In this document: one piece after another, positions 5,040 to 24,694 of the stretch
How the letters are laid out: every line of letters begins with the position of its first letter
How positions within the stretch are numbered: the stretch's first letter is position 1
Source of the DNA: Clostridiales bacterium
GTDB lineage: Bacteria; Bacillota; Clostridia; Oscillospirales; QAMX01
NCBI GenBank assembly: GCA_012800055.1
Contig: JAAZKA010000105.1
Coordinates: 1-33,236 of the forward strand
Reading direction: 5' to 3'
DNA: 33,236 bases
Notes under the pieces: generated by a model
Databases searched by the model: none
The model's input: only the letters and a program-made list of their open reading frames with translations
What the model was told of the DNA's origin: nothing
Translations under genes and position numbers: made by a program

Positions 5040-5108
5040 TAGGGAATTTTATCTAAGGATTCGTTGTCCGAGCGTAATTAAATGATTAAAGAAATACGTT
5101 AAAAGCTA

Positions 5109-5137
5109 TTGCAAAACAGAAAAGAATATGCTATGAT
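5109..5137 (+). promoter_or_regulatory. Predicted sigma-A-type promoter for the small membrane protein gene
   Basis: TTGCAA - 17 bp - TATGAT. Confidence 0.65.
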
Positions 5138-5191
5138 AAAATTACTATGTGCGGACGGGCACCCGCCGTCTATTATGAAGGAGGATGCATC

Positions 5192-5539
5192 ATGGCAAAC
5201 AACTTTATGGAAGACATCACCGCAACCTTTGACTCGGCTGACATTGAGAAGAATAAAACCGTCGCAGCGCTTGCATCGATCCCTGCCCTGTTCTGGCTGC
5301 CCTTCGTCGCTGCAAAGGATTCTCCGTTTGCCAAGTTTTACGCCAATGTCGGTCTCGTCCTGCTCATCGCCGGAGTGGTTGCGTCCATCCTGATGAAAAT
5401 TTTGGGATGGTTCGGAGGCCTTGTCGGCGGACTGATTCAGCTTGCGGTAACCATCGCAGTGATCATCAGCTTGGTCAACGGATTCCAGGGCAAGGCGGTC
5501 AAGCTGCCGGTCATCGGGGATATCGTCATCATCAAATAA
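5192..5539 (+). CDS. Small integral membrane protein, DUF4870/Tic20-like
   Basis: 115 aa MANNFMEDITATFDSADIEKNKTVAALASIPALFWLPFVAAKDSPFAKFYANVGLVLLIAG...; GAAGGAGG upstream of ATG 5192; the 'DIEKNK..AAL..IP.LF..P...AKDSPFA.F.AN.GLVLL' pattern resembles DUF4870-like proteins. Confidence 0.8.
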   Translation: MANNFMEDITATFDSADIEKNKTVAALASIPALFWLPFVAAKDSPFAKFYANVGLVLLIAGVVASILMKILGWFGGLVGGLIQLAVTIAVIISLVNGFQGKAVKLPVIGDIVIIK

Positions 5540-5550
5540 ACCGTATACAC

Positions 5551-5582
5551 AAAAGGGAGCCGTCGGACGCGGCTCCCTTTTT
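5551..5582 (+). terminator. Rho-independent terminator
   Basis: AAAAGGGAGCCG-tcggacg-CGGCTCCCTTTTT. Confidence 0.9.
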
Positions 5583-5717
5583 GACTGCCCGGCAGACGGC
5601 AGAGCCGGGACAACCTGCTTGAAAAAGCATGAGCTTTCGCCGTCCGTGGATGGAAATCACGGGGGTTTTCTTACACCGGTCCGCGAAACGGGAAAGATAA
5701 ATAACATATACAAAGAG

Positions 5718-5736
5718 ATTATACTTTTCGTATAAT
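5718..5736. promoter_or_regulatory. Candidate operator upstream of the propeller operon
   Basis: Perfect inverted repeat ATTATAC-ttttc-GTATAAT ending 16 bp upstream of the predicted -35 box. Confidence 0.4.
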
Positions 5737-5752
5737 TATCTGTGCAAAAGGC

Positions 5753-5781
5753 TTGTAATTCCCGGCCAACTCTGGTATAAT
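5753..5781 (+). promoter_or_regulatory. Predicted promoter of the five-propeller operon
   Basis: TTGTAA - 17 bp - TATAAT, about 75 bp upstream of the P1 start codon. Confidence 0.75.
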
Positions 5782-5854
5782 GTATGCATATTCGGAAAAT
5801 CCGTACGGGAGCCGTCCCGCATCTCCACACCATAAATCAGGGAGGTTATCACTC

Positions 5855-7963
5855 ATGCCCAAGTACGTCTTCGAACGCTTCTCCGACGAGGCACATCGGC
5901 TGATCAATCAGGCGGGTGTTCACCAGGCGTTTCCGAAAGCCGAGGGAAACGAAAACTTCAACGCCTGCTGGGATGCTGCCATCTCCGACGACGGCACGTT
6001 CTACTACACCCTCTCCTCCGAGGCCGGCAAGTGCGACCACGCCAAGCTCGTGCGGTATGACCTCGAGAAAAACGAGATCGTCGAGTGCTTCCATGCGGCA
6101 AAGTACCTGATGCCTAAGGATCGCCAGCTTCCGCACTCGAAGTTCCACACCTCCATCAACTTTATGAACGACGGCCGCATCATTGCCACCACCCACTCCA
6201 CCGACCGTGCCAAGCAGCATGTCGAATGGATGCCGTTCGGTCATCACAACCACGTCTGGGAGGGCTTTCCCGGCTCACAGATTCTCGTATATGACCCCAA
6301 GACCGAACATGTCGAGAGCTGGGGCACACCCGTCACGCATGAGTCGATCTACGGCGCGAAATATGACCCGAAGCACAACCGGCTGTATATGATCGGTTTC
6401 ATGCGCGGGCATGTCTACTCCTTCGACTGCGAGACCCGCAAGGTTGAGGATTTGGGCAAGATGGCGGAGCTGTACTGCTACCGGCTCGTCCTCGGCGCCG
6501 ACGGGAATATCTACGGCTGCACCAAGTCCGGGCAGCTTTTCAAGATTGACACTGAGCGCAATAAGCTCGAGAATATGGCGTTCCGTGTCCCGGAGTACCC
6601 GGATAACTATGTCAATAACACCTGGTACCGCTATATGGAGAACGCGCGCAATCACGCGTCGGGACGCTTCATGTATATGATGTTCGCCGTTGCGCCTTAT
6701 ATGTACAAGCTGGACTTCGCAACAGGCGAGGTTTACCCGGCGGGGAAGATTATGCCCGGCGACGGACTGTACGAGCTGCCCGCGCGTGACGGCTCCTGGA
6801 ACCCCCACAGCTTCATTCTGGATAAAGACGGCGTTATCTGGTTCTGCGTCCACCACTGGAGTGTCCACAATGACACCGAGTACACCGACCCGCGTCCGTG
6901 CTATCTGATGCGCTGGGACGTTGAGAACGGGGAGGAGCCATACTGCTGCGGCATCATCGGTACGCCGACGCGTGTCGAGAACAGCATCACCGAGATGGAG
7001 TACGACGAGAAGCGGGACATCCTCTACTTCGCGAACGTCGGGCGCGGCTTCGGCGGCGACGGTCCGAGCGCAGTTGCCATCGAGCTTAAAAAGTTCCGTC
7101 CGGTATACCGTGAGCGCGGTCCGGTCTCCGACGACCCGATCATCCAGCCCCGCAAGCTGACTGAGGACGAGATAAAGGCCCGTGCTGCGCGTGCGGCGAA
7201 GAAAATCGGCGAGGAAGTCACCGAGCACAACCCCTTCCAGGCGTTCCCGCCGGCGAAGGTCACTCCGGTGCGCATCTGGCGCAGTTTCCCGCGTCTGGAT
7301 GTTGACGAGAGCAAGGTGATCGGCATGGCGTGGGATGACCACGGCGAGCTGCATGTCGTCTGCGGCGCGGGAGGGACATTCGATACCGCGAAGTATGTGC
7401 TGCGCATCACGGTCAATGTCGGTATCCCGGGGATGGTGGTGTCCGGACTGCGCGAGATGAAGTATATCCACGACGAGTACCGCGCGTGGCTGAAGGCGCA
7501 CATTCTGCCGCAGCCTGTGCCGGAATTCCCGGAGACGGTGAAGCTCCCCGAGGCGACGGGCCGCCGCTACCGTGCGAAGGCAAGCGCCGTATGTGAGTGG
7601 CACGACGGCTCGAAGATCGTCGGGACGCTTGATGCGCTGGCAGCGATCGTCCGTCCGAACGGCAAGGTGTATTCGCTCGGCAACGCCGCGGCATACGGGC
7701 CGGTGCGCTGCATGGTCACCAACGCTGCGAAGACGAAGCTCTGGGGCGTCGCCGGAGACGAAGAGGACATGGGCTATGTCTTTACCTATGACGATGACGA
7801 GGGTCTGCGGCAGCTCGGTATCCTCAACTACAACTCCCACGGTTGGTTTGACGGCCCGACCGCGTCCAACATCCTGTCGAGTATTGCAATCAGCCAAGAC
7901 GATAAGTACCTCGCCATCGGCGGTGCGGATCGCATCGCTGCGGTGCATATCATCACGCTGTAA
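5855..7963 (+). CDS. Multi-blade beta-propeller-like protein, paralog P1 (cytoplasmic, function unknown)
   Basis: Start ATG 5855 with GGGAGG upstream; 702 aa. Repeated blade-like units (DDGTFYYTLSSEAGKCDHAKLVRYD, ADGNIYGCTKSGQLFKIDTE, KDGVIWFCV...); C-terminal blade SSIAISQDDKYLAIGGADRIAAVHIITL. No signal peptide seen. Confidence 0.85.
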   Translation: MPKYVFERFSDEAHRLINQAGVHQAFPKAEGNENFNACWDAAISDDGTFYYTLSSEAGKCDHAKLVRYDLEKNEIVECFHAAKYLMPKDRQLPHSKFHTSINFMNDGRIIATTHSTDRAKQHVEWMPFGHHNHVWEGFPGSQILVYDPKTEHVESWGTPVTHESIYGAKYDPKHNRLYMIGFMRGHVYSFDCETRKVEDLGKMAELYCYRLVLGADGNIYGCTKSGQLFKIDTERNKLENMAFRVPEYPDNYVNNTWYRYMENARNHASGRFMYMMFAVAPYMYKLDFATGEVYPAGKIMPGDGLYELPARDGSWNPHSFILDKDGVIWFCVHHWSVHNDTEYTDPRPCYLMRWDVENGEEPYCCGIIGTPTRVENSITEMEYDEKRDILYFANVGRGFGGDGPSAVAIELKKFRPVYRERGPVSDDPIIQPRKLTEDEIKARAARAAKKIGEEVTEHNPFQAFPPAKVTPVRIWRSFPRLDVDESKVIGMAWDDHGELHVVCGAGGTFDTAKYVLRITVNVGIPGMVVSGLREMKYIHDEYRAWLKAHILPQPVPEFPETVKLPEATGRRYRAKASAVCEWHDGSKIVGTLDALAAIVRPNGKVYSLGNAAAYGPVRCMVTNAAKTKLWGVAGDEEDMGYVFTYDDDEGLRQLGILNYNSHGWFDGPTASNILSSIAISQDDKYLAIGGADRIAAVHIITL

Positions 7964-8070
7964 GTGTGTCATATACCCCGCGCGTGGGAATATCCTTAAG
8001 CGCAGGGTACAATCCTTTTATATTGACGAACCCGCTGCGGCTACACCGCACATCAAGGGAGGAACCAAAT

Positions 8071-10194
8071 ATGGCTCAGTACTTATATAAGGATCACAAC
8101 GACCCGGCGTTCTACCGGCTGATCAACCAGGCGGGTGTGCGTGCCGTCGCGCCGCCGGACAAGGGCAACGAGACCTTCAACACCTGCTGGGACGGCGCGC
8201 TCTCCCCGGACGGCGTGTTTTACTACACGCTTTCCTCCGAGGCCGGCAAGTTTGACCACGCCAAGCTTGTGCGCTACAACTATGAGAAGAACGCCGTCGA
8301 GGACTGCGTCTACACCGGCGACGTCGTGCTGCCGCAGATACGGCAGCTCCCGCACTCGAAGTTCCACACCTCTATCAACTTCCGTCCCAAGGAGGGCGGC
8401 TGCGGTTATATCGTCATCGGCACCACCCACAACACCGACCGCTCACCCTTCCATGAAGAGTGGATGCCCTTCGGTCACCACAACCACGTTTGGGAGGGAT
8501 TTCCCGGCTCGCAGATCATCGTATTTGACCCCGATACCGGCGAGAGCGAGAGCTGGGGCACACCCGTGCCGCATGAGTCCATCTACGGCGCGAAGTATGA
8601 TCCGAAGCATGACTGTCTCTACATGATCGGCTTCATGCGCGGGCATGTCTACAGCTTCGATTGCAAGACGCGCAAGGTCGAGGATTTGGGCAAGGCTGCC
8701 GAGGTCTTCAACTACCGCCTGTTCCTGGGTGCCGACGGCAACATCTACTCCTGCACCAAGTCCGGCGAATACTACCGCATCAACACCGAGACCAACAAGC
8801 TCGAAGACCTCCACTTCCACATCCCCGAGTATCCCGGCGCGTATGTCAACAACACCTGGTACCGCTACCTCGCCTGCGCACGCAACCATGCGTCCGGTGA
8901 GTTCATGTACTGCGTCAACAACAATGCCTGGGAGATGTTCGCCTACAACTTCAAGACCGGTGTGTTTACAACCGTCGGACGTCTCAAATCCCGCGACGGC
9001 TACTTTCCGCTCAACTGTGACGTGGACTACGGCTGCGCAAACTTCGCCGTCGACAAGTACGGCGTGATCTGGTTCGAGCAGCGCGTCTCTACGCACAACA
9101 GCATGGATCGTACGCGCTTCAACCCATATTACTCGCACCTGTTCCGCTGGGACGTCGAGAACGGGAAGGAGCCGGAGATGATGGGCGTCATGGGTACGCC
9201 CGAACGCAACCACGGCATCACCGTCGAGATGGAGTACGATGAGGTACACGACCGGCTCTACACGGTCGACCACGGCCGCGGCTTCGGGCATGACGGCCCG
9301 TGCGTGATCTGTATCGACCTGCCGGAGTTCAGGAAGCATATGTACGAGCCGGGGCCGTATACCGATGACCCGAAGATTCATCCGCGTGAGATTTCCGAGG
9401 AGGACTTCCAGAAGGAGCTGGCGCGCCGGAAGCTTGCGACAGGCGAGGAAAATACCGAGAAGAACCCCTTCCAGGCTTTTCCGATTGCAAAGACCCATCC
9501 GGTACGGTTGTGGAACGCGGTGCTGACGCCCGAGGACAGCGCGGTCATCGGCATGGTGTGGAAACCGTCGGAGATGGGCGGCGATATCCTGCACGTCGTG
9601 ACCGGCGCACAGAACCCTCCCGGCGCGGGCTTGTTCGACGCGGCAAAATATGTGTTCCAGATGAAAGATTGGGAGATTCTCTCTCGCGCGGACTTTGACC
9701 TGATCAAACCGGAGTACCGCGAGTGGCTGCGTGAAAACATCCTGCCTCAGCCGGTGGCGTTTGACGAAGGCATCAAGCTGCCGGAGGCGACGGGACGCCG
9801 GTACCGCGCGACGGCGAGTGCGACGGCGCTGTGGCATGACGGCCGCACGTTCGTCGGTACGCATGACGCATTCGCGGCTCTGGTATCCCCGGACGGCGAG
9901 GTCTTCTCTTTAGGCGCGGCGGCGGCATACGGGCCTGTGCGGTGCGTCTGCACGAATGCGGCGCGTACGAAGCTGTGGGGTGTCGCGGGCGACGTCGAGG
10001 ATATGGGGTATGTGTTCACTTATGACGATTTGAACGGGCTGCGGCAGTGCGGGATGCTCAACTACAACGCGGCGGGCTTCTATCGTCCGACGGCGTCCAA
10101 CGTACTGTCGAGCATCGCGGTCAACGCGGACGAGACACGGCTTGCCATCGGCGGCGCCGACCGGCTCGGGACTGTGCACGTCGTGGAGCTGTAG
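8071..10194 (+). CDS. Multi-blade beta-propeller-like protein, paralog P2
   Basis: ATG 8071 with AAGGGAGGA upstream; 707 aa; shares PHSKFHTSINF, EWMPFGHHNHVWEGFPGSQI, ESIYGAKYDPKH, GFMRGHVYSFD, GEENTEKNPFQAFP and PEATGRRYRATASA with P1. Confidence 0.85.
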   Translation: MAQYLYKDHNDPAFYRLINQAGVRAVAPPDKGNETFNTCWDGALSPDGVFYYTLSSEAGKFDHAKLVRYNYEKNAVEDCVYTGDVVLPQIRQLPHSKFHTSINFRPKEGGCGYIVIGTTHNTDRSPFHEEWMPFGHHNHVWEGFPGSQIIVFDPDTGESESWGTPVPHESIYGAKYDPKHDCLYMIGFMRGHVYSFDCKTRKVEDLGKAAEVFNYRLFLGADGNIYSCTKSGEYYRINTETNKLEDLHFHIPEYPGAYVNNTWYRYLACARNHASGEFMYCVNNNAWEMFAYNFKTGVFTTVGRLKSRDGYFPLNCDVDYGCANFAVDKYGVIWFEQRVSTHNSMDRTRFNPYYSHLFRWDVENGKEPEMMGVMGTPERNHGITVEMEYDEVHDRLYTVDHGRGFGHDGPCVICIDLPEFRKHMYEPGPYTDDPKIHPREISEEDFQKELARRKLATGEENTEKNPFQAFPIAKTHPVRLWNAVLTPEDSAVIGMVWKPSEMGGDILHVVTGAQNPPGAGLFDAAKYVFQMKDWEILSRADFDLIKPEYREWLRENILPQPVAFDEGIKLPEATGRRYRATASATALWHDGRTFVGTHDAFAALVSPDGEVFSLGAAAAYGPVRCVCTNAARTKLWGVAGDVEDMGYVFTYDDLNGLRQCGMLNYNAAGFYRPTASNVLSSIAVNADETRLAIGGADRLGTVHVVEL

Positions 10195-10204
10195 GGATTA
10201 GACA

Positions 10205-10238
10205 GGTGGAGACGAGGGCTCAACGCCCCGCCTCCACC
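10205..10238 (+). other. Intergenic hairpin between P2 and P3
   Basis: GGTGGAG...GGGC-tcaac-GCCC...CTCCACC nested inverted repeat with no downstream T-tract. Confidence 0.5.
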
Positions 10239-10377
10239 ATACAAGGACTGCGGTTCGGACGATGACAGGCTGGATGAATTTTGCACAGAGCAGCGCGGTT
10301 TCGATCCGCAGGAAATATCCCGTACACCCTGACGCTTGTATCCTGAATCCTGACATCTTTCAGAGGAGGTTTCGGCT

Positions 10378-12519
10378 ATGGCATCCTATGTCTTCCCGCT
10401 GTTCTCCGAGGAATCCTTCCGGCTTATCAACCAGACCGGCGTCCGCCAGGCGCACCCGAAAGCCGAAGGGTACGAAAATTACAACTGCAACTGGGACGGT
10501 GCACTCGCGCCCGACGGCACCTTCTACTTTACCCTCTCATCCGAGGCCGGTAGGTGCGACCACGCCCGCCTCGTTCGCTACGACTACGACCGCAACGAGA
10601 TCATCGAGTGTTTCTATGCTGCCGATATCCTTGCGCCCAAAGACCGCCAGCTCCCGCACTCCAAACTCCATACCTCCATCAACTTCATCCCGCGCGGTGC
10701 GGAGCACGGTGACCTCAGCAACCCTTCCGACTACCTCGTCCTTGCCGTCACCCACTCCACCGACCGTGCGCGTCAGCATACCGAGTGGATGCCCTTCGGG
10801 CACCACAATGACCTCTGGGAAGGCTACCCAGGCTCCCAGATCCTCATCTATGACCCAAAGTCCGGCCACGCCAAGTCCATCGGTACGCCCGTTCCGCGTG
10901 AGAGCATCTATGGTGCGAAGTATGACCCCGTCCACAACCGCCTCTATATGGTCGGATTCATGCGCGGCCATATCTATTCCTATGACCTTGCCACCAAAAA
11001 GGTTGTTGACCTCGGACGCGGGATGGAATTTTGCTCCTACCGGCTCTCTCTCGGCGGCGACGGCAATATCTACGGCGGCTCGAAAGCCGGCTACTTCTTC
11101 CGCGTCGATACGAATACCAACACGCTCGAGAGTCTCGGGTGGAAGGTACCGGATTATCCCGCGGCGTCCGGCGACGGTGACAACTACATCAACAACACCT
11201 GGTACCGCTGGATGTCTCTGGCGCGCAATCATCCGTCGGGTAAGTTCCTCTATATGCTTGCGCCGTGTACCGACCACCTGTGGAAATATGACTACGAGAC
11301 GAAGACTGTCACCCGCGCCGGACGGATGCTTCCGAAGGACGGCATCGTCGAGCTGCCCAGCCGTGAGAGCTGTTACGCCACCTATACCTTCGCCATCGAC
11401 CGCGACGGCGTCCTTTGGTACACGATGCGCGGCTGGTCGATGAAGAACCGCCGGGATTATGTCTACAACATCCCCTGCTACCTCATCCGCTGGGATATAG
11501 ATCGCGGCCGTGAGCCGGAGGTCATGGGCATCATGGGCACTCCCGAGAACACTCAGCGCCTCACCTGTGAGATGGAGTACGATCCCGTGCGCGATATCCT
11601 TTACTGCTGCAACGTCGGACGCGGCTTCGGCGCGTTGGGGCCGGATGTCATCGCCATCGACCTGAAGGAGTACCGGAAGCATATGTACGAGCCGGGGCCG
11701 GTATCCGAAGACCCCGCTCTGCGTCCGCGTGAGCTGACCGATGACGAGAAGCGCAAGCGTGACGAACGGCTCCACAAGTTTGTCGGCGAGGAGGTCACCG
11801 AGAAGAACCCCTTCCAGCCCGTCCCCGACGCAGACTGCTACCCCGTGCGCATCTTCGAGTATCTCGCGCCTGAGCGCATCCTTGACGCTGCCGTCATCGG
11901 GATGGCCTGGGAAGGCGATATCCTCCACGTCATCACCGGCGCGAAGGAAACCTTCGACGAGGCGGCGTATGTCTTCCGCATCCGGGGACGTGAGGTGCTG
12001 GGCGTGCTTGACTTTGCGTGCATCCGGGACGAGTACCGCGATTGGCTGCGGGAGAACATCCTGCCCAAGCCGGTGGATTTCCCCGGCGACATCCCGCTGC
12101 CCGAGGCGACGGGCCGCCGCTACCGTGCGAAGGCGAGTGCTGTGTGCGACTGGAACGGCGGACGCAAGCTCGTCGGAACGATGGACGGGCTGTTCGCGGT
12201 TGTCACGGACAAGAACGTCTACTCGCTCGGGAATGCCGCCGCGTACGGACCGGTACGCTGCCTGTGCGCCGATGCCGACTGCACCGTCGCCTACGGAACC
12301 GCCGGAGACCATGAAGACATGGGGTATCTGTTCACCTACGATGACCGCCGGGGTCTGCGGCAGATGGGCATTATCAGCTACAACTCGCACGGTTTCTACG
12401 GCACCACGCAGGCCAACATCCTGACCTCTGTCGCGCTCTCACCGGACGGGAAGACCCTCGCGGTGGGAAACTCCGACCGTATGGCGTGTGTGCACCTGCT
12501 CACACTTCAGAAAGAATAA
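10378..12519 (+). CDS. Multi-blade beta-propeller-like protein, paralog P3
   Basis: ATG 10378 with GAGGAGGT upstream; 713 aa; shares PHSKLHTSINF, EWMPFGHHNDLWEGYPGSQI, ESIYGAKYDP, GEEVTEKNPFQPVP and PEATGRRYRAKASA. Confidence 0.85.
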   Translation: MASYVFPLFSEESFRLINQTGVRQAHPKAEGYENYNCNWDGALAPDGTFYFTLSSEAGRCDHARLVRYDYDRNEIIECFYAADILAPKDRQLPHSKLHTSINFIPRGAEHGDLSNPSDYLVLAVTHSTDRARQHTEWMPFGHHNDLWEGYPGSQILIYDPKSGHAKSIGTPVPRESIYGAKYDPVHNRLYMVGFMRGHIYSYDLATKKVVDLGRGMEFCSYRLSLGGDGNIYGGSKAGYFFRVDTNTNTLESLGWKVPDYPAASGDGDNYINNTWYRWMSLARNHPSGKFLYMLAPCTDHLWKYDYETKTVTRAGRMLPKDGIVELPSRESCYATYTFAIDRDGVLWYTMRGWSMKNRRDYVYNIPCYLIRWDIDRGREPEVMGIMGTPENTQRLTCEMEYDPVRDILYCCNVGRGFGALGPDVIAIDLKEYRKHMYEPGPVSEDPALRPRELTDDEKRKRDERLHKFVGEEVTEKNPFQPVPDADCYPVRIFEYLAPERILDAAVIGMAWEGDILHVITGAKETFDEAAYVFRIRGREVLGVLDFACIRDEYRDWLRENILPKPVDFPGDIPLPEATGRRYRAKASAVCDWNGGRKLVGTMDGLFAVVTDKNVYSLGNAAAYGPVRCLCADADCTVAYGTAGDHEDMGYLFTYDDRRGLRQMGIISYNSHGFYGTTQANILTSVALSPDGKTLAVGNSDRMACVHLLTLQKE

Positions 12520-12533
12520 AGGGGGAGATACTC

Positions 12534-13343
12534 TTGATACATTCCGACTGGCATATTCACACGACCGCGTCTTACGACGCAAAGCTTCCGCTGCCGACGC
12601 TCATCGACGCAGCGCAGAAGCAAGGGCTGCGCGCGTTCGGCATGACCGATCATGCCAACTACAATGACCGCTCCTTCCTCGGCAACATCGCCGAATCGCA
12701 GCGGCTCTATGAGCAGTACCGCGTGCCCGAGCTGAAGTTCGGCGTCGAGTTTACCCCCATTGCGAAGCCCATGTACGACTACATCGCGAAGCACGGCACG
12801 CGCGAGGGCTATGTTCCCGTGCCGCAGGACAAGCCTTATGACATAGAGCTCGCGCTGACACTCGACGAGATGAAAGCCCTTGGGATGAGCTACTCTGTCG
12901 GTGCCGCACACTGGCGGGTCGACGTCGCCGACGCCAGAACGGTCGACAACTCTGCCTACGCGCAGATCAAGGAGTGGTTCCGGCAGCAAATGTGGCTGGC
13001 GTGCGACCCGCGCGTGACGATTCTCGGGCATCCGTGGTCGTGCAACCAGACCTGGTACGACGACTTCTCGATGATCCCCCGGATGATGCACGATGAGCTG
13101 GGCGCGGCGCTCAAAGAAAACCGCAAGTACATCGAGTGCAACGCCGGCATGCTGATATCGCCGAAGCTGACCGATTTCTTCAAGCGTCAGTACGCCGATT
13201 TCCTGCGCTATATGTTTGAGAAGGGTATCCCGATTACCTACGGCTCGGACTGCCACGGCCCGGAGTACCCGGACAACCGCGCGCAGTGCGAGGAATATCT
13301 GAGCTATGCCGGATTCCGCGACGGTGACTTTTCCGAACTGTGA
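12534..13343 (+). CDS. PHP-domain metallohydrolase (histidinol-phosphatase/TrpH-like), paralog A
   Basis: Probable TTG start at 12534 with GGGGGAG upstream. PHP motifs: SDWHIHTTASYD, GMTDHANYND, FGVEFTP, ILGHPW, YGSDCHG. Confidence 0.85.
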   Translation: MIHSDWHIHTTASYDAKLPLPTLIDAAQKQGLRAFGMTDHANYNDRSFLGNIAESQRLYEQYRVPELKFGVEFTPIAKPMYDYIAKHGTREGYVPVPQDKPYDIELALTLDEMKALGMSYSVGAAHWRVDVADARTVDNSAYAQIKEWFRQQMWLACDPRVTILGHPWSCNQTWYDDFSMIPRMMHDELGAALKENRKYIECNAGMLISPKLTDFFKRQYADFLRYMFEKGIPITYGSDCHGPEYPDNRAQCEEYLSYAGFRDGDFSEL

Positions 13344-13411
13344 GAGGGAGACGGCAGAGAACGCGGGGACAGCGATGGGACATATTTTGTCCCCCGTAAA
13401 GGGGTTTCAAT

Positions 13412-14278
13412 ATGATTACATCCGACTGGCATACGCATACGACGGCAAGCCCTGACGGAACACTCACGGTCGGAACGCTGTGCGAAGAGGCACGGCGTCA
13501 GGGGCTGCGGGTCATCGGTATGAGCGACCACTGCAACTTCAACGACGCGAAGTACCGTCAGGTGATGCGGGATTCCCGGGCAGCGTATGAGCGGCACTGT
13601 ACGCAGTATCCGGAACTGCGGTTCGGTGTTGAGCTGTCGCCGTATTCAAGGACGGTGTACGACGCGCTCGCACGGGGAGATACGCTCGGGAGCTGCCGCG
13701 CGGGGTATATTGCCGCGGGAGAGCCGCCGTATACGCCCGCATTCGCGCTCACGCGGGAGGACGTCGACGCGCTGGGGCTTTCCTATGTGATTGCCGGGGT
13801 ACACTGGCGCTGTGATGCGCCCGACGCGTCCGTGCCGCCTCGGAGTGCCGACGCGTGGATAAAAGAGTGGCTGCGGCTGATGACGTGGTCAGCGGAGGCG
13901 CTCGCGGAGATTGCCGGAGACAGGCTTAAAATTCTCGCGCATCCTTGGTACAGCTGCATCCGCGCACCGTGGGTACAGTCGCCCGGCGAGGATAACCGCG
14001 GCTTTGCAAGGATTCCCTTCAGCGCGCATGACGAGCTTGCCGCCGTACTGCTGCAGTACGGCGTGGCGGCGGAATGCAACGCCGACCAGGTTACACATCC
14101 GACTCTGTCCGAACGCTACCGCCGCGAGTATGCCGAGTTCCTCGTCTACCTCAACGAGCGCGGCGTTCCGATCACCTACGGTACCGACGAGCATGAACGC
14201 TACCCGGACCGCCGTAAGAGCGTCCTTGCAGCGCTGCGGCAGTCGGGCTATCGTGAGAATACGCTGTACGGCGGGTGA
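13412..14278 (+). CDS. PHP-domain metallohydrolase, paralog B
   Basis: 288 aa; PHP motifs SDWHTHTTASPD, GMSDHCNFND, FGVELSP, ILAHPW, YGTDEH; clear paralog of the preceding gene. Confidence 0.85.
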   Translation: MITSDWHTHTTASPDGTLTVGTLCEEARRQGLRVIGMSDHCNFNDAKYRQVMRDSRAAYERHCTQYPELRFGVELSPYSRTVYDALARGDTLGSCRAGYIAAGEPPYTPAFALTREDVDALGLSYVIAGVHWRCDAPDASVPPRSADAWIKEWLRLMTWSAEALAEIAGDRLKILAHPWYSCIRAPWVQSPGEDNRGFARIPFSAHDELAAVLLQYGVAAECNADQVTHPTLSERYRREYAEFLVYLNERGVPITYGTDEHERYPDRRKSVLAALRQSGYRENTLYGG

Positions 14279-14383
14279 ATGCACCGCCGAAGAAATCGGG
14301 TATATTCCTGAACAGATAGATGACTTCAGTGACCGCGCTGACTGTGAGATCACAGGTTACCATATGGAAAAGGAGGAACTACG

Positions 14384-15808
14384 TTGTATACAAAACTCGC
14401 GCCGGTGGAGGAAATCTTCGAGGGAGTACCGGAACCGCATATCCCGACGGTTGTCGGTGCATCGCCGGGCGTACCGTTTCTGTACCGGCTGCCGTGCAAG
14501 GGCGCGCGTCCGCTGAGATGGCATGTTGACGGGCTGCCGGAAGGATTGTGCTGCGACGCCGACACAGGCATCCTCGGCGGCACCGCGCCGGAGGGCGTGT
14601 GGGAGCTGCGCGTATCCGTGGAGAATGTGTGCGGATCTGCAAAAACAGGCTGCACGCTGCGCATCGCACCGGATGGGCTGCTGCGTACGCCGATGATGGG
14701 CTGGTGCTCGTGGAACGCCACGCGCCGCTTCATCACACAGGAAAAGGCGCTCAATACCGCAAAGCTGCTGTGTGAGACGGGGCTTGCGGAGTATGGTTAC
14801 ACGTATGTCAACATCGACTCGGGCTGGCAAGGCGAGTATGACACGGATAAGTCGATCCTGCCGAACGCAGGCTTCCCGGATATGCGGGCACTCGCGGATG
14901 AGGTGCATAGGCTGGGACTGAAGCTGGGTATCTACTCCACACCGATGCTGCAGGCCTGGGGCGGCGGCATCTACCCCGGCTGTACGGTGGGACAGCTCGA
15001 CCCGCGTTACCCCACCGCATACTACGGCATCGGGAAGATACATAAGGAACGCGAAAACGTCAGGAAGTGGGCCGCATGGGGCATCGACCATCTCAAATAC
15101 GACTGGTCGCCGAGCGATGTGGAGAACGCCGCGCTCATGAAGAATGCGCTGACAGCCTGCGGACGCGACATCAGCTTTACGGTCACCGTCCGCGCCGGGA
15201 TGCAGGACGCCGACTGGTGGAAGACGCACTGCGCGTCGTGGCGTGACAACGGCGATTCAGACGATACCTGGGAGAACGTCCGCGACGGGCGCTTCCATAC
15301 TGACGACTGGGCGCAGCATATCTCTCCCGGGCACTTCTTCGATCTTGACATGCTCGAGACCGGCGTCTATGACGGACATCCCTGCCGCTTGACGGAAGAC
15401 GAGCAGCTCGTCTCGATGACTATCCGCGCAATCTTCCCGTCACCGCTCGTCATCTCCTGCGACCTCTCACGCCTGACCGCATTCGACTTGGCGATGCTCT
15501 GTAACCCCGAGGTGATTGCCGTCAACCAGGACGCTGCAGGAAAGGGCGCGGTCTGCAGGGATGAGTATATCGCCCGGCATAACGGTGCGCTCACCCGGTA
15601 CGTCAAGGTATACGAGAAACAGCTTACTGAAGGCCGAGCCATCGCGCTGTTCAACCTCGGGGAACGGGAGGAGACCGTCGCGCTGAAAAACTACACCGGC
15701 GCCGCGATGCTGCGCGATGTCTGGGCACGCGAGGATATCCCCACCGGTGACGTCACACTCGCGCCGCATACCTGCCGCCTGTTCCGTGAACCCATCAATG
15801 TTGTATAA
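14384..15808 (+). CDS. GH27-type alpha-galactosidase-like glycoside hydrolase with N-terminal Ig-like (He_PIG-like) domain
   Basis: TTG start after AGGAGGA. TPMMGWCSWNA, YVNIDSGWQG, HRLGLKLGIYSTP, IDHLKYDWSP (nucleophile region), SWRDNGDSDDTWEN (acid/base region); C-terminal beta domain. Confidence 0.85.
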   Translation: MYTKLAPVEEIFEGVPEPHIPTVVGASPGVPFLYRLPCKGARPLRWHVDGLPEGLCCDADTGILGGTAPEGVWELRVSVENVCGSAKTGCTLRIAPDGLLRTPMMGWCSWNATRRFITQEKALNTAKLLCETGLAEYGYTYVNIDSGWQGEYDTDKSILPNAGFPDMRALADEVHRLGLKLGIYSTPMLQAWGGGIYPGCTVGQLDPRYPTAYYGIGKIHKERENVRKWAAWGIDHLKYDWSPSDVENAALMKNALTACGRDISFTVTVRAGMQDADWWKTHCASWRDNGDSDDTWENVRDGRFHTDDWAQHISPGHFFDLDMLETGVYDGHPCRLTEDEQLVSMTIRAIFPSPLVISCDLSRLTAFDLAMLCNPEVIAVNQDAAGKGAVCRDEYIARHNGALTRYVKVYEKQLTEGRAIALFNLGEREETVALKNYTGAAMLRDVWAREDIPTGDVTLAPHTCRLFREPINVV

Positions 15809-15819
15809 GGAGATTTGCA

Positions 15820-17955
15820 ATGTATCACTTCGAATGGTTTTCCGACGACTACTACCGCCTGACCAACCGCGCCGGCGTGCGTGCGGCACGTCCGAAGGCA
15901 GAGGGCAACGACAACTACAATGCCTGCTGGGACGGCAACATTGCCCCCGACGGCACCTTCTACTTCACGCTCTCCTCCGAGGGCGGCAAGTGTGACCACG
16001 CCAAGCTCGTTCGCTATGATTTCGACCGCAACGAGATCATCGACTGCTTCTACTCCGGAGACGTCGTGCTCCCCAAGGACCGCCAGCTTCCACACTCCAA
16101 GCTGCACACGTCCATCAACTTCATCCCGCGCGGCGCGGTGCACGGCGATCTCTCCGATCCGTCTGACTACCTCGTCATCGCGACCACCCATTCCACCGAC
16201 CGTGCCAGGCAGCATCCCGAGTGGATGCCCTTCGGCCACCACAACCATGTCTGGGAGGGCTTCCCCGGCTCACAGATCCTCGTCTATGATCCCAAGTCCG
16301 GCTGCACCGAGAGCTGGGGCACACCCGTCACCCACGAGTCGATCTACGGCGCGAAGTATGACCCGAAGCACAACCGGCTGTATATGATCGGCTTCATGCG
16401 CGGGCATGTCTACTCGTTCGACATCGTGACACGGAAAGTGCGCGATTTGGGCAAGGCTGCGGAGCTCTTCAATTACCGTCTCATCCTCGGTGCCGACGGC
16501 AACATCTACGCCGGCACCAAGTCCGGCTACCTCTACCGCATCAATACCGAGACTGACGCGCTCGAAGACCTCGGCTATGCCGTTCCCGATGAACCGGGAC
16601 ACTATATCCACAACACCTGGTACAAATACATGATCAACGGACGGAACCATCCGTCAGGCCGCTTCATGTACTGGAGGTCGCTGAGCTCCGATTACTTCCA
16701 TACGCTTGACTTCAAGACCCTCGAGGTCGCGCGCGCGGGGAAGCTGCTGCCCGGAGACGGGCTGATTAAGATGCCGTCGGAGTGGTCGGACAACGAGTGC
16801 GACACCTTCGTGCTTGATAAGTACGGCGTGCTGTGGTATCATTATCGCGTATGGGTGCTCGACTCCGACCTGCCGCATACGATGCCGGTGCCGAACTACC
16901 TGATGCGCTGGGATGTCGAGAACGGGAAGGAGCCGGAGTGCCTGGGCATCATCGGCGGCTGGGCCGACTATACGCAGACGCTCACCACCGAGATGGAGTA
17001 CGACCCCGTGCGGGATATCCTCTACTGCGTGAGTGTCGGGCGCGGCTTCGGCAGCGAAGGCCCGGACATCGTCGCGTTTGACCTGAAAGAATTCCGGAAG
17101 CATATGTACGAGCCGGGGCCTGTCAGCACTGACCCCGCGCTGCGTCCGCATGACCTCACGCCCGAGCAGATCAAAACGCGTGCGGAGAACCGTCTTAAGC
17201 GTACCGGTGAGGAGAATACCGAACACAATCCCTTCCAGGCGTTCCCCAACGAGAACGTCTATCCCGTGCGTCTGTGGCGGCATGTTCCGAAAGCACGTAT
17301 CGAGGACAGTAAAGTCATCGGCATGGCGTGGCAGCCGTCCGCGTCGGGCAGCCGGGACATTCTTCATGTCGTGACCGGTGCGGCGTGCGCGTTCGATCAG
17401 GCGGCGTATGTTTTCCGCATCCGTGGACGTGAGGTATTGGGACGCGTGGACTTCGCGGACATCGGAGAGGAATACCGGGCGTGGCTCAAGGCAAACATCC
17501 TGCCGCAGCCGGTCGAGGAGTTCGCGGAGGATGTGAAGCTGCCGGAGGCGACGGGCCGCCGTTACCGCGCGAAAGCCAGTGCTGTCTGTGAGTGGCATGA
17601 CGGCCGGAAGTTTGTCGGGACACTTGACGCACTTGCCGCGCTGGTATCACCGGAGGGAAAGGTCTACGCGCTCGGCAATGCCGCAGCGTACGGGCCGATC
17701 CGCTGTGTCTGCACGAATGCCGCGAAGACGAAACTCTGGGGCGTTGCCGGGGATGATGAGGATATGGGCTATGTCTTCACCTATGACGATGACGAAGGGC
17801 TGCGTCAGCTCGGCATCCTCAACTACAACAGCCACGGCTACTACGGCACCACTGCTGCGAATGTTCTGTCGAGTATTGCTCTGTCCCCGGATGAACACAC
17901 CCTTGCCATCGGCTGCTCCGATCGCATCGCGAGTGTCCATCTGGTCACATTATAA
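15820..17955 (+). CDS. Multi-blade beta-propeller-like protein, paralog P4
   Basis: ATG 15820 with AAGGAGA upstream; 711 aa; all signature motifs present, including GEENTEHNPFQAFP. Confidence 0.85.
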   Translation: MYHFEWFSDDYYRLTNRAGVRAARPKAEGNDNYNACWDGNIAPDGTFYFTLSSEGGKCDHAKLVRYDFDRNEIIDCFYSGDVVLPKDRQLPHSKLHTSINFIPRGAVHGDLSDPSDYLVIATTHSTDRARQHPEWMPFGHHNHVWEGFPGSQILVYDPKSGCTESWGTPVTHESIYGAKYDPKHNRLYMIGFMRGHVYSFDIVTRKVRDLGKAAELFNYRLILGADGNIYAGTKSGYLYRINTETDALEDLGYAVPDEPGHYIHNTWYKYMINGRNHPSGRFMYWRSLSSDYFHTLDFKTLEVARAGKLLPGDGLIKMPSEWSDNECDTFVLDKYGVLWYHYRVWVLDSDLPHTMPVPNYLMRWDVENGKEPECLGIIGGWADYTQTLTTEMEYDPVRDILYCVSVGRGFGSEGPDIVAFDLKEFRKHMYEPGPVSTDPALRPHDLTPEQIKTRAENRLKRTGEENTEHNPFQAFPNENVYPVRLWRHVPKARIEDSKVIGMAWQPSASGSRDILHVVTGAACAFDQAAYVFRIRGREVLGRVDFADIGEEYRAWLKANILPQPVEEFAEDVKLPEATGRRYRAKASAVCEWHDGRKFVGTLDALAALVSPEGKVYALGNAAAYGPIRCVCTNAAKTKLWGVAGDDEDMGYVFTYDDDEGLRQLGILNYNSHGYYGTTAANVLSSIALSPDEHTLAIGCSDRIASVHLVTL

Positions 17956-17970
17956 AAAGGAGGCTTATCC

Positions 17971-20160
17971 ATGTACTACTTCGAGCAGTTTTCCGATGCC
18001 TACTACCGTCTGACCAATCAGACCGGCGTGCATCAGGCGCGTCCGGTCGAGAAGGGCAACGAGAACTTCAACTGCTGCTGGGACGGCGACTGTGCTCCCG
18101 ACGGTACCTTCTACACCACACTGTCGTCCGAGACCGGCAAATGCGACCACGCCAAGCTCGTCCGCTATGACCGTGAGACCAACGAGCTCGTCGATTGCTT
18201 CTACGCCGGAGACCTCGTCCTTCCGCAGGAACGGCAGCTCCCGCACTCCAAGCTGCACACCTCCATCAACTTCATCCCCACCGGTCCGAAACCGGAGGAT
18301 TACGTCGTCATCGCGACGACCCACTCCACCGACCGCGCGAAGCATCACACCGAGTGGATGCCTTTCGGTCACCACAACCATGTCTGGGAAGGCTTCCCCG
18401 GCTCGCAGATTCTCGTCTACAACCCCAAGACCGGCGCCGCCAAGAGTCTCGGGACGCCCGTGCCGCACGAGTCGATCTATGGCGCGAAGTATGACCCGAA
18501 GCATAAGCGGCTTTATATGATCGGCTTCATGCGCGGGCATGTCTACTCGCTCGATCTGAACATCACACAACGCGATGGTGTTGTGCAGAATCTGCACGCG
18601 AAGCCGCCGGTACGCGACCTGGGTAAAGCGGCGGAGGTCTTCTGTTTCCGACTCGCGCTCGGCGCAGACGGCAACATCTACGGCTGCACGAAGTCCGGCT
18701 TCCCGTTCATGATCGATACGGAAGCGGATAAGCTCGTCGACCTGGGCGCGGAGGTACCGGAATACTTCTCGCCCGAAGGCAACCCGCGCTTTGTCAACAA
18801 CACATGGTACCGCTACCTCGGCCAGGCGGAGAACTCCACCGACGGGAAGTACCTCTATATGGCGCATCCGTATGCGTACGACCTGTTCAAGCTGGAGTTT
18901 GCGACGAAGAAGATCACCTCCGCCGGTTCTCCGCTGCCGTGGAAGGACGGCGAGAGCTGCAGCGATATTGTCAAGCCGCAGTCAAAGAAGTCCAGTACGG
19001 GGCTGCACTGCTTTACGAAGGATAAGTACGGCGTGCTGTGGTATGTGTTGGGCGTGCGTCCGTATGATACTGACGAGGACGTGAAATACACGCCGGCGCA
19101 GTATCTGATGCGCTGGGACATCGCCGGCGGCGGACATCCTGAGCTTTTAGGGCAGGTCGGCACGCCGGAGTGGACGCACAACCGCTCAACCGAGATGGCG
19201 TGCGACCTGATCCGCGACGAGCTGTATATTGTCAACGTCGGCCAGGGCTTCGGACATGATGGACCCGACGTCGTACGCATCGAGCTTTCTAAGTTCCGTA
19301 AGCACATGTATGAACCGGGTCCGAAGACCGCGCAGAAGCGCTACTACCCGGTGCCGATGACACAGGAGGAGCTTGACAAGCGTGCCGAGAGCCGCAAGAA
19401 GAAGAACACATCCGGCGAGGAGAACACCGAGAACAATCCCTTCCAGGCGTTCCCGATCGACTGTGCGTACCCGATCCGTCTGTGGCGTATGATCGGCAAG
19501 CCCGGCGAGGTCTGTGACCACATCGAGGACAGCAAGGTCATCGGCATGGCGTGGGAGGGCGATGTGCTCTACGTTGTGACCGGTGCCAGCGGGGTGTTCG
19601 AGACGGCGAAGTACGTCTTTCGCATCCGTGACCGTGAGGTACAGGAGCGTACGGATTTTGACGCGATCGGACCGGAGTACAAGGCATGGCTGAAGGCGAA
19701 CATCCTGCCGCAGCCTGTACCGGAATTCCCGGAGACGGTGAAGCTTCCGGAGGCGACGGGACGCCGCTACCGCGCGAAGGCGTCGGCGACGGCGAAGTGG
19801 CACGACGGCCGCACGTTCGTCGGGACGCTGGATGCGCAGACGGCATTTGTCAGCGAAAACGGCGACGTTTACGCGCTCGGCGGCGCGGCGGCGTATGGGC
19901 CGGTACGCTGCCTCTGTACCAACGCCGCGCAGGACATCCTCTACGGCGTCGCGGGCGACGACGAGGATATGGGATATGTCTTCACCTACGACGATAAGCG
20001 CGGGCTGCGGCAGCTTGGGATTCTGAGCTATAACAGCGCCGGGTATTACCGTCCGACCGAGGCTAATTTGCTGTCGAGCATTGCACTTTCACCGGACGAG
20101 AAGACGCTTGCCATCGGATGCGCCGACAGGATTGCGACGGTGCACTGGATTACACTGTAA
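17971..20160 (+). CDS. Multi-blade beta-propeller-like protein, paralog P5
   Basis: ATG 17971 with AAAGGAGG upstream, 15 bp after the P4 stop; 729 aa; signature motifs present plus a paralog-specific insertion near 18555-18612. Confidence 0.85.
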   Translation: MYYFEQFSDAYYRLTNQTGVHQARPVEKGNENFNCCWDGDCAPDGTFYTTLSSETGKCDHAKLVRYDRETNELVDCFYAGDLVLPQERQLPHSKLHTSINFIPTGPKPEDYVVIATTHSTDRAKHHTEWMPFGHHNHVWEGFPGSQILVYNPKTGAAKSLGTPVPHESIYGAKYDPKHKRLYMIGFMRGHVYSLDLNITQRDGVVQNLHAKPPVRDLGKAAEVFCFRLALGADGNIYGCTKSGFPFMIDTEADKLVDLGAEVPEYFSPEGNPRFVNNTWYRYLGQAENSTDGKYLYMAHPYAYDLFKLEFATKKITSAGSPLPWKDGESCSDIVKPQSKKSSTGLHCFTKDKYGVLWYVLGVRPYDTDEDVKYTPAQYLMRWDIAGGGHPELLGQVGTPEWTHNRSTEMACDLIRDELYIVNVGQGFGHDGPDVVRIELSKFRKHMYEPGPKTAQKRYYPVPMTQEELDKRAESRKKKNTSGEENTENNPFQAFPIDCAYPIRLWRMIGKPGEVCDHIEDSKVIGMAWEGDVLYVVTGASGVFETAKYVFRIRDREVQERTDFDAIGPEYKAWLKANILPQPVPEFPETVKLPEATGRRYRAKASATAKWHDGRTFVGTLDAQTAFVSENGDVYALGGAAAYGPVRCLCTNAAQDILYGVAGDDEDMGYVFTYDDKRGLRQLGILSYNSAGYYRPTEANLLSSIALSPDEKTLAIGCADRIATVHWITL

Positions 20161-20169
20161 GGATAGATG

Positions 20170-20208
20170 AAAAAGCGGACGGCTCACAAGAAGCCGTCCG
20201 CTTTTTTA
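20170..20208. terminator. Bidirectional rho-independent terminator between P5 and ybaK
   Basis: AAAAAGCGGACGGCT-cacaaga-AGCCGTCCGCTTTTTT; convergent genes on both sides. Confidence 0.92.
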
Positions 20209-20676
20209 TTCTATTACGTCCGCGACCGTCGCGCCGACGAAAGATACCAGCGTGTCGGTGTCGATCAGGAGCTGACAGCCGCGCACACCGGCGCTCACGG
20301 TGATTTGGTCAAAGAGGATGCAGGTCTCATCGATAAACGTCGGGTACTTCTTCTTCATGCCGATGGGGGAACAGCCGCCGTGGATATAGCCGGTCGTGGG
20401 GAGCAGCTCTTTTAAGAGGAGCATGTCGATTTTCTTATCATGGGCAGCCTGGGCGGCCTTTTTGAGGTCGAGGGAGGCGTTGGCGGGGATACAGAAAACC
20501 ATGATGCCGTGCTTCTCACCGCGGACGGAGAGGGTTTTGAAGACCTGTTCGGGAGGAAAGCCGCAAATCGCGGCGATATCGACGGCGGTGAGTGCGGGGT
20601 CTGCGCCGTCGTAGGTGTAGGGCGTGTAGGCGATGCCCGCCGCGTCGAGCAGACGCATTGCGTTGGTTTTGGTCAT
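20206..20676 (-). CDS. ybaK: Cys-tRNA(Pro)/aminoacyl-tRNA deacylase, YbaK/EbsC family
   Basis: 156 aa; NAMRLLDAAGIAYTPYTYD, VFKTLSV, CIPANASLDLKKAA, TGYIHGGCSPIGMKKKYPTFID. Confidence 0.92.
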   Translation of the reverse strand: MTKTNAMRLLDAAGIAYTPYTYDGADPALTAVDIAAICGFPPEQVFKTLSVRGEKHGIMVFCIPANASLDLKKAAQAAHDKKIDMLLLKELLPTTGYIHGGCSPIGMKKKYPTFIDETCILFDQITVSAGVRGCQLLIDTDTLVSFVGATVADVIE

Positions 20677-20688
20677 GCCGCTTCCTCC

Positions 20689-22611
20689 TTAATCCGGCGT
20701 CTTTAAGTGCATGTACCGGTCGGATTCATTCCACGGCACCAGAAATCCGGCCCCGTGCGCGCAGAATACCGAGTTTCCATCTTCCTCCGGGTCTCGCAGC
20801 GCGTTGTACCCACATGCCGCGATGATCTCCTCCGGCTCACTCACCGGCTCGTACCCGTCATGCGTCAGCTGTACCGCAGCACCGCCATGCGTCAGTTCTG
20901 CCAGCACCAGCGGTAAATCCATCACCCGCGCCGTTGCCGCGCGTCCGGTCACCCGCGTCACACCGTACACATCCTTCGGTGCATCCGTCACCGCCCCACG
21001 CTTCTGCAGCTCCGCCAGGACCTTCCCTAAAAAAGATGTCTCTGCCTCCACTGTCAGCGTGCTGTACGGCTCCAGCAGCAGGTTCGAACCCTTCAGCAGT
21101 CCCTGCCGCAGTGCCCGATAGGTTGCCTCACGGAAGTCACCGCCTTCCGTGTGCTTTTCATGCGCCTGCGCTGCCAGCAGCGTCACCCGTACGTCCGTCA
21201 GCCGTGACCCTGTCAGCACACCTTTGAAGTTCCGCTCCAGCACATGCGTCCGTACGAGGTTCTGCCACGACTGCGCCAGGTCATCCGTGTGAACCGCCGA
21301 CCGGAAAGTGATTCCTTCACCGCGCGGCGCAGGCTCCAGCCGCAGATGTACCTCCGCGTAGTGCCGCAGCGGTTCGAAGTGCCCGCGCCCCGTTACGGGT
21401 GCGGCGAGCGTCTCGAGATACACCACCGACGCGTCCGAGAACTGTACAGTGATGCCGAAACGTTCCCGCATCCGCGCCGCCAGAGTCTCGAGCTGGATCA
21501 CCCCGCAGACGTTCACCCGAAGCTGCCGGATCGCCTCATCGTCGTGCACAGAGATCGACGGCTCCTCATCCGCGAGCATGTTCAACGCCGGCCGCACGGC
21601 GGATACGTCTGCGTCCACCCGGACGGTCAGCGTCGGGGTATACCGGGGAATGGCACGCGGGACATAGCCGCCGAACGCATCGCCCGGGCGTAAGGATAAT
21701 CCCGCTGCCGCGAATATCTCGCCCGCGTGTACCTCCGCAACCGGCGCTGACTTTGCGCCCACGATGTCCCGCAGTTCGGTGATCTTGTCCTTACCTACCA
21801 TGTCCCGCGTCCGCAGCACACCGCGCGTCAGCCGGCAACGGCATAACCGTACCCCGCGATCGTCCCGCGTTACCTGATAACACACCCCGGCAGGTGTACC
21901 CGATGGGAATATCGGCGCCGGTGCCAAGACATCGAGCAGTGTCAACAGTTCCACGATGCCGGAACTCTGCAGTGCCGCGCCGTACGTTACCGGGAAAATC
22001 CCCCGCGCCCGCGTCAGCTCCCGCGCTGACCGAAGAAACCGCGCGTCATCCGTACGGTCGGCGAGAAAGTCCGACAGCAGCTCGTCATCCCGCAGCGCCA
22101 AAGCGTCGCGCAGAGCGGGGGAGACATGTACGCCGTCGAAGTCCGAGAAGTCCGTCACGCCTACGCCGCCCAGTGTCCGCAGCTCGTCGAGCACCGCGTC
22201 AAGCCCGGCGTACGGCAGGTCGGTTTTGTTGACGAAGAAGAATGTCGGAATCTCCAGACGCTCGAGCAGCGCCCAGATTGCGCGGGTGTGACCCTGCACG
22301 CCCGCCGGAGCGCTGATCACGACCACTGCGCAATCCGCGGCCAGCAGTGCCCGCGCCATTTCCGACGAGAAGTCCGCGTGGCCCGGCGTGTCCAGCAGCG
22401 TGAACTCCGTATCGCCGTAGACGAACCGCGCCGACGACGCGTAGATTGTGATACCGCGCGCGCGTTCCTCCGTGTCGGAGTCGAGGAACGCCGTCCCACG
22501 GTCGACGCGTCCCGCCGCGCGCAGCGTATGGGTACGGTATAGAAGCTGCTCGCACAGTGTCGTCTTGCCCGCGTCGACATGCGCAAGCACCGCCAGGGTC
22601 AGATGTCTCAT
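20689..22611 (-). CDS. TetM/TetO-like translation-factor GTPase (EF-G-related)
   Basis: G1 AHVDAGKTT, RGIT, G3 DTPGHADF, G4-like NKTD; C-terminal domain IV/V features and the tail NSVFCAHGAGFLVPWNESDRYMHL. Start placed at 22611 (MRHLTLAVLAHVDAGKTT). Confidence 0.88.
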   Translation of the reverse strand: MRHLTLAVLAHVDAGKTTLCEQLLYRTHTLRAAGRVDRGTAFLDSDTEERARGITIYASSARFVYGDTEFTLLDTPGHADFSSEMARALLAADCAVVVISAPAGVQGHTRAIWALLERLEIPTFFFVNKTDLPYAGLDAVLDELRTLGGVGVTDFSDFDGVHVSPALRDALALRDDELLSDFLADRTDDARFLRSARELTRARGIFPVTYGAALQSSGIVELLTLLDVLAPAPIFPSGTPAGVCYQVTRDDRGVRLCRCRLTRGVLRTRDMVGKDKITELRDIVGAKSAPVAEVHAGEIFAAAGLSLRPGDAFGGYVPRAIPRYTPTLTVRVDADVSAVRPALNMLADEEPSISVHDDEAIRQLRVNVCGVIQLETLAARMRERFGITVQFSDASVVYLETLAAPVTGRGHFEPLRHYAEVHLRLEPAPRGEGITFRSAVHTDDLAQSWQNLVRTHVLERNFKGVLTGSRLTDVRVTLLAAQAHEKHTEGGDFREATYRALRQGLLKGSNLLLEPYSTLTVEAETSFLGKVLAELQKRGAVTDAPKDVYGVTRVTGRAATARVMDLPLVLAELTHGGAAVQLTHDGYEPVSEPEEIIAACGYNALRDPEEDGNSVFCAHGAGFLVPWNESDRYMHLKTPD

Positions 22612-22685
22612 AATGTGTGCCCTCATGACACGAAACGCTCCCGCGCTCCGGCTTGTGCGGATACACGGGGGCGTATTTGTGTATT

Positions 22686-24509: not shown

Positions 24510-24541
24510 AGAGACTCCTCCACGAATTTCAAATACACCAT

Positions 24542-24570
24542 AGTATATCACATTTTCCTGCCGATGTAAA
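24542..24570 (-). promoter_or_regulatory. Predicted promoter for typA
   Basis: On the minus strand: TTTACA - 17 bp - TATACT. Confidence 0.65.
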
Positions 24571-24694
24571 CACTGCTTTTTCACAAGCGATAAGACGTAT
24601 TTGAACTGCCTTCGGTCATTTTTGCGGAATATTCTTGAGTTGTCTCCCTCTGTGTGTCCGAAGCGCGGATGCGAACGGGCAGCTTACGGTCGTT

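Follow-up and report, generated by a model that had tools for sequence, protein, structure and literature searches.

The array and its flanking genes

The present analysis concerns a window of 33,236 nucleotides (nt), that is, the whole stretch of DNA analyzed, from Clostridiales bacterium contig JAAZKA010000105.1 (GCA_012800055.1), and within it an array at positions 5855–20160 carrying five paralogous genes for predicted beta-propeller proteins. The host, a gut-type anaerobe, is represented by a metagenome-assembled genome (MAG) of 2.14 Mb that is 89% complete, in which the window is contig C48. An earlier note on this DNA had described five full-length, collinear open reading frames (ORFs) on one strand, each with its own strong ribosome-binding site, and this description held throughout. 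Translation of the window gave five proteins of 702–729 amino acids (aa), all encoded on the plus strand without internal stops: copy 1 (5855–7963, 702 aa), copy 2 (8071–10194, 707 aa), copy 3 (10378–12519, 713 aa), copy 4 (15820–17955, 711 aa) and copy 5 (17971–20160, 729 aa). The copies, 58–66% identical to one another, aligned end to end, with 59–66% identity to copy 1, and their ribosome-binding sites, in order GGGAGG, GGGAGG, GAGGAGG, AAGGAGA and AAGGAGG, were all good. Chance or a gene-calling artefact is rejected given five full-length, intact homologs. Long antisense ORFs (up to 617 aa) opposite the genes of the array are interpreted as a consequence of high GC content.

The array is operon-like in appearance, but it is not continuous. 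Upstream of copy 1 a consensus scan alone identified a sigma-70-like promoter site on the plus strand (5753–5781; TTGTAA-17-TATAAT, with TG before the -10, i.e. an extended -10), and the unit is closed by a plus-strand intrinsic terminator at approximately 20165–20210, consisting of a hairpin (-32.8 kcal/mol, z -8.9) and a U-run downstream of it; a hairpin is also present between copies 2 and 3, without a U-run. Between copies 3 and 4, however, the array is interrupted by three genes on the same strand. These encode a PHP-domain metallohydrolase beginning at a TTG start 14 nt after copy 3 (12534–13343; PF02811, E=1e-9, with an HxH...TDH motif), a second PHP-domain metallohydrolase of 288 aa (13412–14278; PF02811, E=1e-8), and a GH27-like alpha-galactosidase family protein of 474 aa, also with a TTG start (14384–15808; PF16499, E=1e-25, and PF17801). 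Judged by these signals, the array is plausibly one transcription unit. A small hydrophobic protein without a Pfam match is encoded at 5147–5539, with its own terminator-like hairpin downstream, and is probably outside the array; at 20689–24584, on the minus strand, are adjoining translation-factor GTPase genes, one EF-G-like (645 aa) and one BipA.

Family identity, predicted fold and conserved residues

The proteins constitute a real, old family that is apparently undescribed in the curated libraries searched, a new family within a known fold. Pfam searches matched the five copies to no family above cut-off, giving only sub-threshold propeller repeats (WD40, DUF6923, SGL), with a best score of 19.3 bits against a cut-off of 27 for WD40 (PF00400) and 14.5 against 26.3 bits for SGL (SMP-30); PL22 (PF14583), the PL42-type BNR_4 (PF15892), RPE65/CCD, the 7-bladed lactonase and every other polysaccharide lyase (PL) model were missing from Pfam results at E<0.1. 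NCBIfam gave nothing above cut-off for the propeller copies, and PADLOC anti-phage defence models matched none of the five copies, the PHP genes or the GH27-like gene. A PDB search with the family profile returned designed and natural propellers through generic blade matches and no specific protein; the best sequence match, to the designed Cake propellers (PDB 6tji, E 4.7e-14), reflects a generic blade repeat and spans only a recurring two-blade stretch. A literature search on the family found nothing specific. Filing the copies under a known family is rejected on the Pfam, NCBIfam, PADLOC and PDB profile searches, and the earlier view of the family as uncharacterised stands. So does the view that the copies lack a signal peptide or transmembrane segment: neither was found in any of the five by Kyte-Doolittle scan (best 19-residue mean 1.36; no more than 0.25 in the N-terminal 45 residues), and the proteins are predicted to be cytoplasmic.

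An AlphaFold2 model of copy 4, built with a 53-row family alignment, was all-beta and all-propeller (predicted local distance difference test, pLDDT, 94.4; predicted template-modelling score, pTM, 0.93). DSSP divided it into about 11 successive three- or four-stranded units (blades), as in a beta-propeller, with a velcro-type N-terminal strand at residues 20–23. The propeller fold named in the earlier note is thus upheld by model, DSSP, Foldseek and profile matches. A single regular seven-bladed propeller, at about 300–400 aa, is ruled out for copy 4 by its 711 aa and roughly 11 blades. Foldseek with the full model found generic propellers only, mostly tandem ones in PDB, at query-normalised template-modelling (TM) scores of 0.15–0.36. 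When residues 262–562 (blades 5–8) were modelled separately (pLDDT 90, pTM 0.75), only about two blades at a time could be fitted to known propellers, with a TM-score of about 0.3 and a root-mean-square deviation of 4–6 across some 155 columns, or of about 16 across 300. Because of this poor fit, the model probably comprises two rings that join near blade 6/7 and, in the simplest case, have six and five blades. All blades in a single 11-bladed ring, a type reported as new in TED (PMC7618865), would be a less likely alternative.

Twenty-two near-invariant polar residues were selected as a putative site, among them, in copy 4 numbering, W37, D38, E54, R88, K94, H96, H124, T126, E173, Y176, H196, E215, R220, R580, T601, D603, D645, D648 and R702. 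They fall in blades 1–4 and 8–11, many in the DA/BC loops that make up one face and some in strands, and all 22 are retained in each of the five window copies. Positions fixed within ortholog groups and different between them were also sought, and 20 such group-defining positions were observed compared with a mean of 0.06 in random regroupings. These lay mostly in blades 3–7, on the face bearing the conserved residues, and were distributed as 14 of 296 positions in DA/BC loops, 6 of 253 in strands and none of 162 in AB/CD loops (DA/BC versus AB/CD, Fisher p=0.003). Loop positions specific to the groups include 216–218, 288–292, 326–329 and 384–389. General variability does not account for this clustering, since it is the CD loops that vary most. 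One conserved site common to the copies, together with differences on the same face, supports the interpretation that the copies may have different ligands for one common chemistry.

Paralogy, distribution and genomic neighbourhood

In a tree of 61 family sequences with SH-aLRT support, each window copy grouped with its own ortholog in Oscillospiraceae SIG502 and not with its neighbours in the window. The earlier note had raised the question of whether the copies are individually conserved in other genomes, and for copies 2–5 the answer in SIG502 was strongly affirmative: copy 2 grouped with three SIG502 copies and L036:10088 (support 100), copy 3 with L074:10024 (100), copy 4 with L074:12973 (99), and copy 5 with L076:3468 from SIG502 and L043 from AS15tlH2ME_27 (100). 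Support was weaker, at 88 with an open fork, for the clade of copy 1 with L036:7732 (AS15tlH2ME_27) and L074:7891 (SIG502); copies 1, 2 and 5 all have orthologs in AS15tlH2ME_27. The ratio of nonsynonymous to synonymous differences (pN/pS) between orthologs was 0.23–0.40 in all five pairs, with synonymous sites near saturation, and by this measure all five pairs are under purifying selection. Separate orthologs and these ratios together indicate that the duplications are older than these genera and that the copies have been kept by selection. Decaying duplicates, which the earlier note had set against its own interpretation, are rejected on the same two grounds.

The family extends beyond what that note had described, to other copies in the host and to other phyla. 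Elsewhere in the host genome there are about six more members with 38–45% identity, three in tandem on contig C115 and one each on C58, C54 and C64, for about 11 copies in total. The C64 copy (6322–8733, locus L019) is broken by a stop and/or frameshift, which could reflect either pseudogenisation or an assembly error. The copy on C54 lies close to a pair of radical SAM genes, one for a SPASM-type maturase and the other for a B12-binding protein, and to small ORFs (5042–11577, L018), possibly a peptide-modification cluster. The second same-family carrier, SIG502 (G004), has about 17 copies, including a tandem run of six and, on contig C28 (3580–15261, L077), another of five that is related to the three-copy array on host C115. 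When 84,980 species genomes were scanned by a pattern-based method that probably undercounts, 37 loci emerged. Their bearers were MAGs labelled Oscillospiraceae or Clostridiales, originating from sludge, the rumen and the ruminant gut, as well as members of the Lentisphaerota/Kiritimatiellota and a single Treponema. The family occurred in 2 of 59 close relatives (host included), in 7 of 394 genomes sampled across the order and, at the level of the phylum, in 1 of 398 sampled genomes, the host itself. The family is rare and patchily distributed across phyla. In the tree one SIG502 copy is placed with the Lentisphaerota/Kiritimatiellota clade, and the copy from Treponema is placed with host and SIG502 copies, a pattern that suggests transfer between phyla. 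Plasmid, phage and IMG/VR records held no relative of the family, and an origin as a phage, plasmid or viral gene is rejected on that basis.

Genes for sugar breakdown are near about two-thirds of annotated family neighbourhoods, making a carbohydrate setting suggestive. The window copies have GH27, GH13 and DUF4832/GH42-like neighbours, and Lentisphaerota-type loci have PcRGLX- and GH78-type genes; further genes near family members are DUF4838, GFO/IDH/MocA, GH10, AraC, GH29, WbsX, GHL6, PfkB, GH20 and ABC sugar transporters. PHP genes recur near the family, in the window, in SIG502 (C93, the end of C111, and C120) and in G594, representing few independent settings. Across the annotated neighbourhoods no fixed partner gene was found, and GFO/IDH/MocA was dropped as a specific partner when its 7 loci proved close to a rough expectation from the 42 copies in the host.

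Possible functions of the propeller copies

The explanation we favour, and about which our own confidence is evenly balanced, is that the array holds five members of a new cytoplasmic all-propeller family of about 700 aa that are enzymes processing carbohydrates and have diverged in the substrates they act on. Two rings, each with a velcro closure and in the simplest case of six and five blades, would bring their conserved faces together to form one pocket, within which K94, H96, H124, E173, Y176, H196, E215, R220, R580 and D603 would make up a putative catalytic or ligand-binding set. The substrates of the five copies would differ from one another yet be related, all of them imported and glycan-derived, with a lyase, hydrolase or isomerase as candidate chemistry, and the unit's GH27-like glycosidase and its PHP hydrolases may act together with the propellers. 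A more elaborate version, which we regard as tentative and rather doubtful, has two small propellers (about 6+5 blades) closing like a clamshell around an invariant His/Glu/Lys/Arg site and performing a reaction on glycan-derived compounds undescribed for any propeller, with five or more specificities in single operons and with passage among Clostridia, Lentisphaerota/Kiritimatiellota and spirochaetes.

Several observations weigh against enzymes of carbohydrate metabolism built in this way. Neighbouring genes vary from genome to genome, some copies have unrelated neighbours (U32 peptidase, transglutaminase, CODH/ACS, radical SAM), and the host is rich in sugar genes, with for example 42 GFO/IDH/MocA matches at high density in 2.1 Mb; because of this variation and this richness the sugar context is not proven enrichment. 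Strands, with their 6 of 253 group-defining sites, do not carry significantly fewer than DA/BC loops (p=0.17). The two-ring arrangement was deduced from secondary structure and the poor fit of blades 5–8, as opposed to coordinates, and the catalytic residues and substrates are putative only.

Known propellers offer partial parallels. The GH74 xyloglucanases have two seven-bladed Asp-box propellers with substrate between them and are usually secreted; a tandem arrangement would be shared, but the present family has no Pfam match. The periplasmic sensor domains of the hybrid two-component proteins BT4663 and BT3049 (PDB 4a2l, 3v9f), with two propellers per chain, were the best bacterial Foldseek matches to the full model, albeit with TM-scores of only 0.26–0.34 and 9–11% identity, and they are extracytoplasmic parts of membrane proteins whereas the family is soluble and has no kinase part. 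PL22 oligogalacturonate lyase is a Mn-dependent cytoplasmic propeller in a sugar-catabolism setting, but it is about half as long as the present proteins. The PL24, PL25 and PL42 lyases (LOR_107, PLSV_3936, FoRham1) share with the family a propeller and a carbohydrate setting, and have an anterior-face site of His, Arg and Tyr to which the family may have a counterpart. Their mechanism uses a His-His-Asp triad with an Arg neutraliser, for which the invariant H96, H124, H196, R220, R580 and Y176 of the family would be candidates at the sequence level. Those lyases are single seven-bladed domains (PMC8377490), unlike the family with its roughly 700 aa, 11 or so blades and lack of a signal peptide or PL match in Pfam.

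A specific form of the favoured explanation, unlikely in our view, is that the copies are cytoplasmic oligosaccharide lyases akin to PL22, PL24, PL25 and PL42, in which conserved His residues would serve as base and acid, an Arg or Lys would neutralise the uronate carboxylate, a metal would possibly take part, and fragments containing uronic acid would undergo beta-elimination. The invariant K94, along with the His, Tyr and Arg residues just named, resembles the His/His, Arg and Tyr sets of PL24/25/42 (PMC8377490, PMC10951650), PcRGLX- and GH78-type genes neighbour the Lentisphaerota-type loci, and the host has KDPG aldolase. Yet of the genes expected downstream in a uronide-lyase pathway, neither GH88/105 (like KduI an unsaturated-uronate gene) nor UxaC was found in the host genome, 89% complete as it is and with about 11 copies; its sole KduI-family match (PF04962) is IolB-like, and KduI is rejected there; and G594, with one family copy, shows none of GH88/105, UxaC or KduI. 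That the propellers are instead non-catalytic ligand-binding or sensor proteins, soluble counterparts of BT4663-type domains that would signal the presence of glycan fragments to regulators or enzymes, is likewise improbable. The Foldseek ranking of BT4663 and BT3049 and the AraC-type regulators in about 10 loci are consistent with sensing, but AraC genes are probably common in such genomes, the proteins have no signalling, transmembrane or DNA-binding domain and no constant partner, and such a number of invariant ionisable residues is seen more often in active sites.

Of the two functional alternatives in the earlier note, subunits of a hetero-oligomer or enzymes and binding proteins tuned to related substrates, the latter probably fits better because the group-defining positions cluster on the face bearing the conserved residues. 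A single complex of all five copies would agree with their shared operon and maintained paralogy, but we consider it very improbable: an obligate hetero-oligomer is made less likely by several genomes that appear to be single-copy, as judged from the two best candidates scored per genome, and orthologous operons differ in content, SIG502 having three copy-2 types and its copy 5 on another contig, and AS15tlH2ME_27 showing the three copies already mentioned. WD40-type scaffolds for protein–protein contact that play no part in sugar metabolism could be imagined from the WD40-like blades and tandem WD40 Foldseek matches, but are highly unlikely given ionisable conserved residues that cluster on a single face and copies that are amplified, patchily inherited and accompanied by glycosidase genes.

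The family is absent from the curated libraries searched even though several anaerobes keep many diversified copies. With its conserved and group-specific positions, the enzyme interpretation lends itself directly to tests by mutagenesis and by screening of substrates. Should the copies prove to be enzymes, the operon would be a ready-made series of natural specificity variants, and the family would represent a hidden step in the breakdown of plant or host glycans by bacteria of gut, rumen and sludge.

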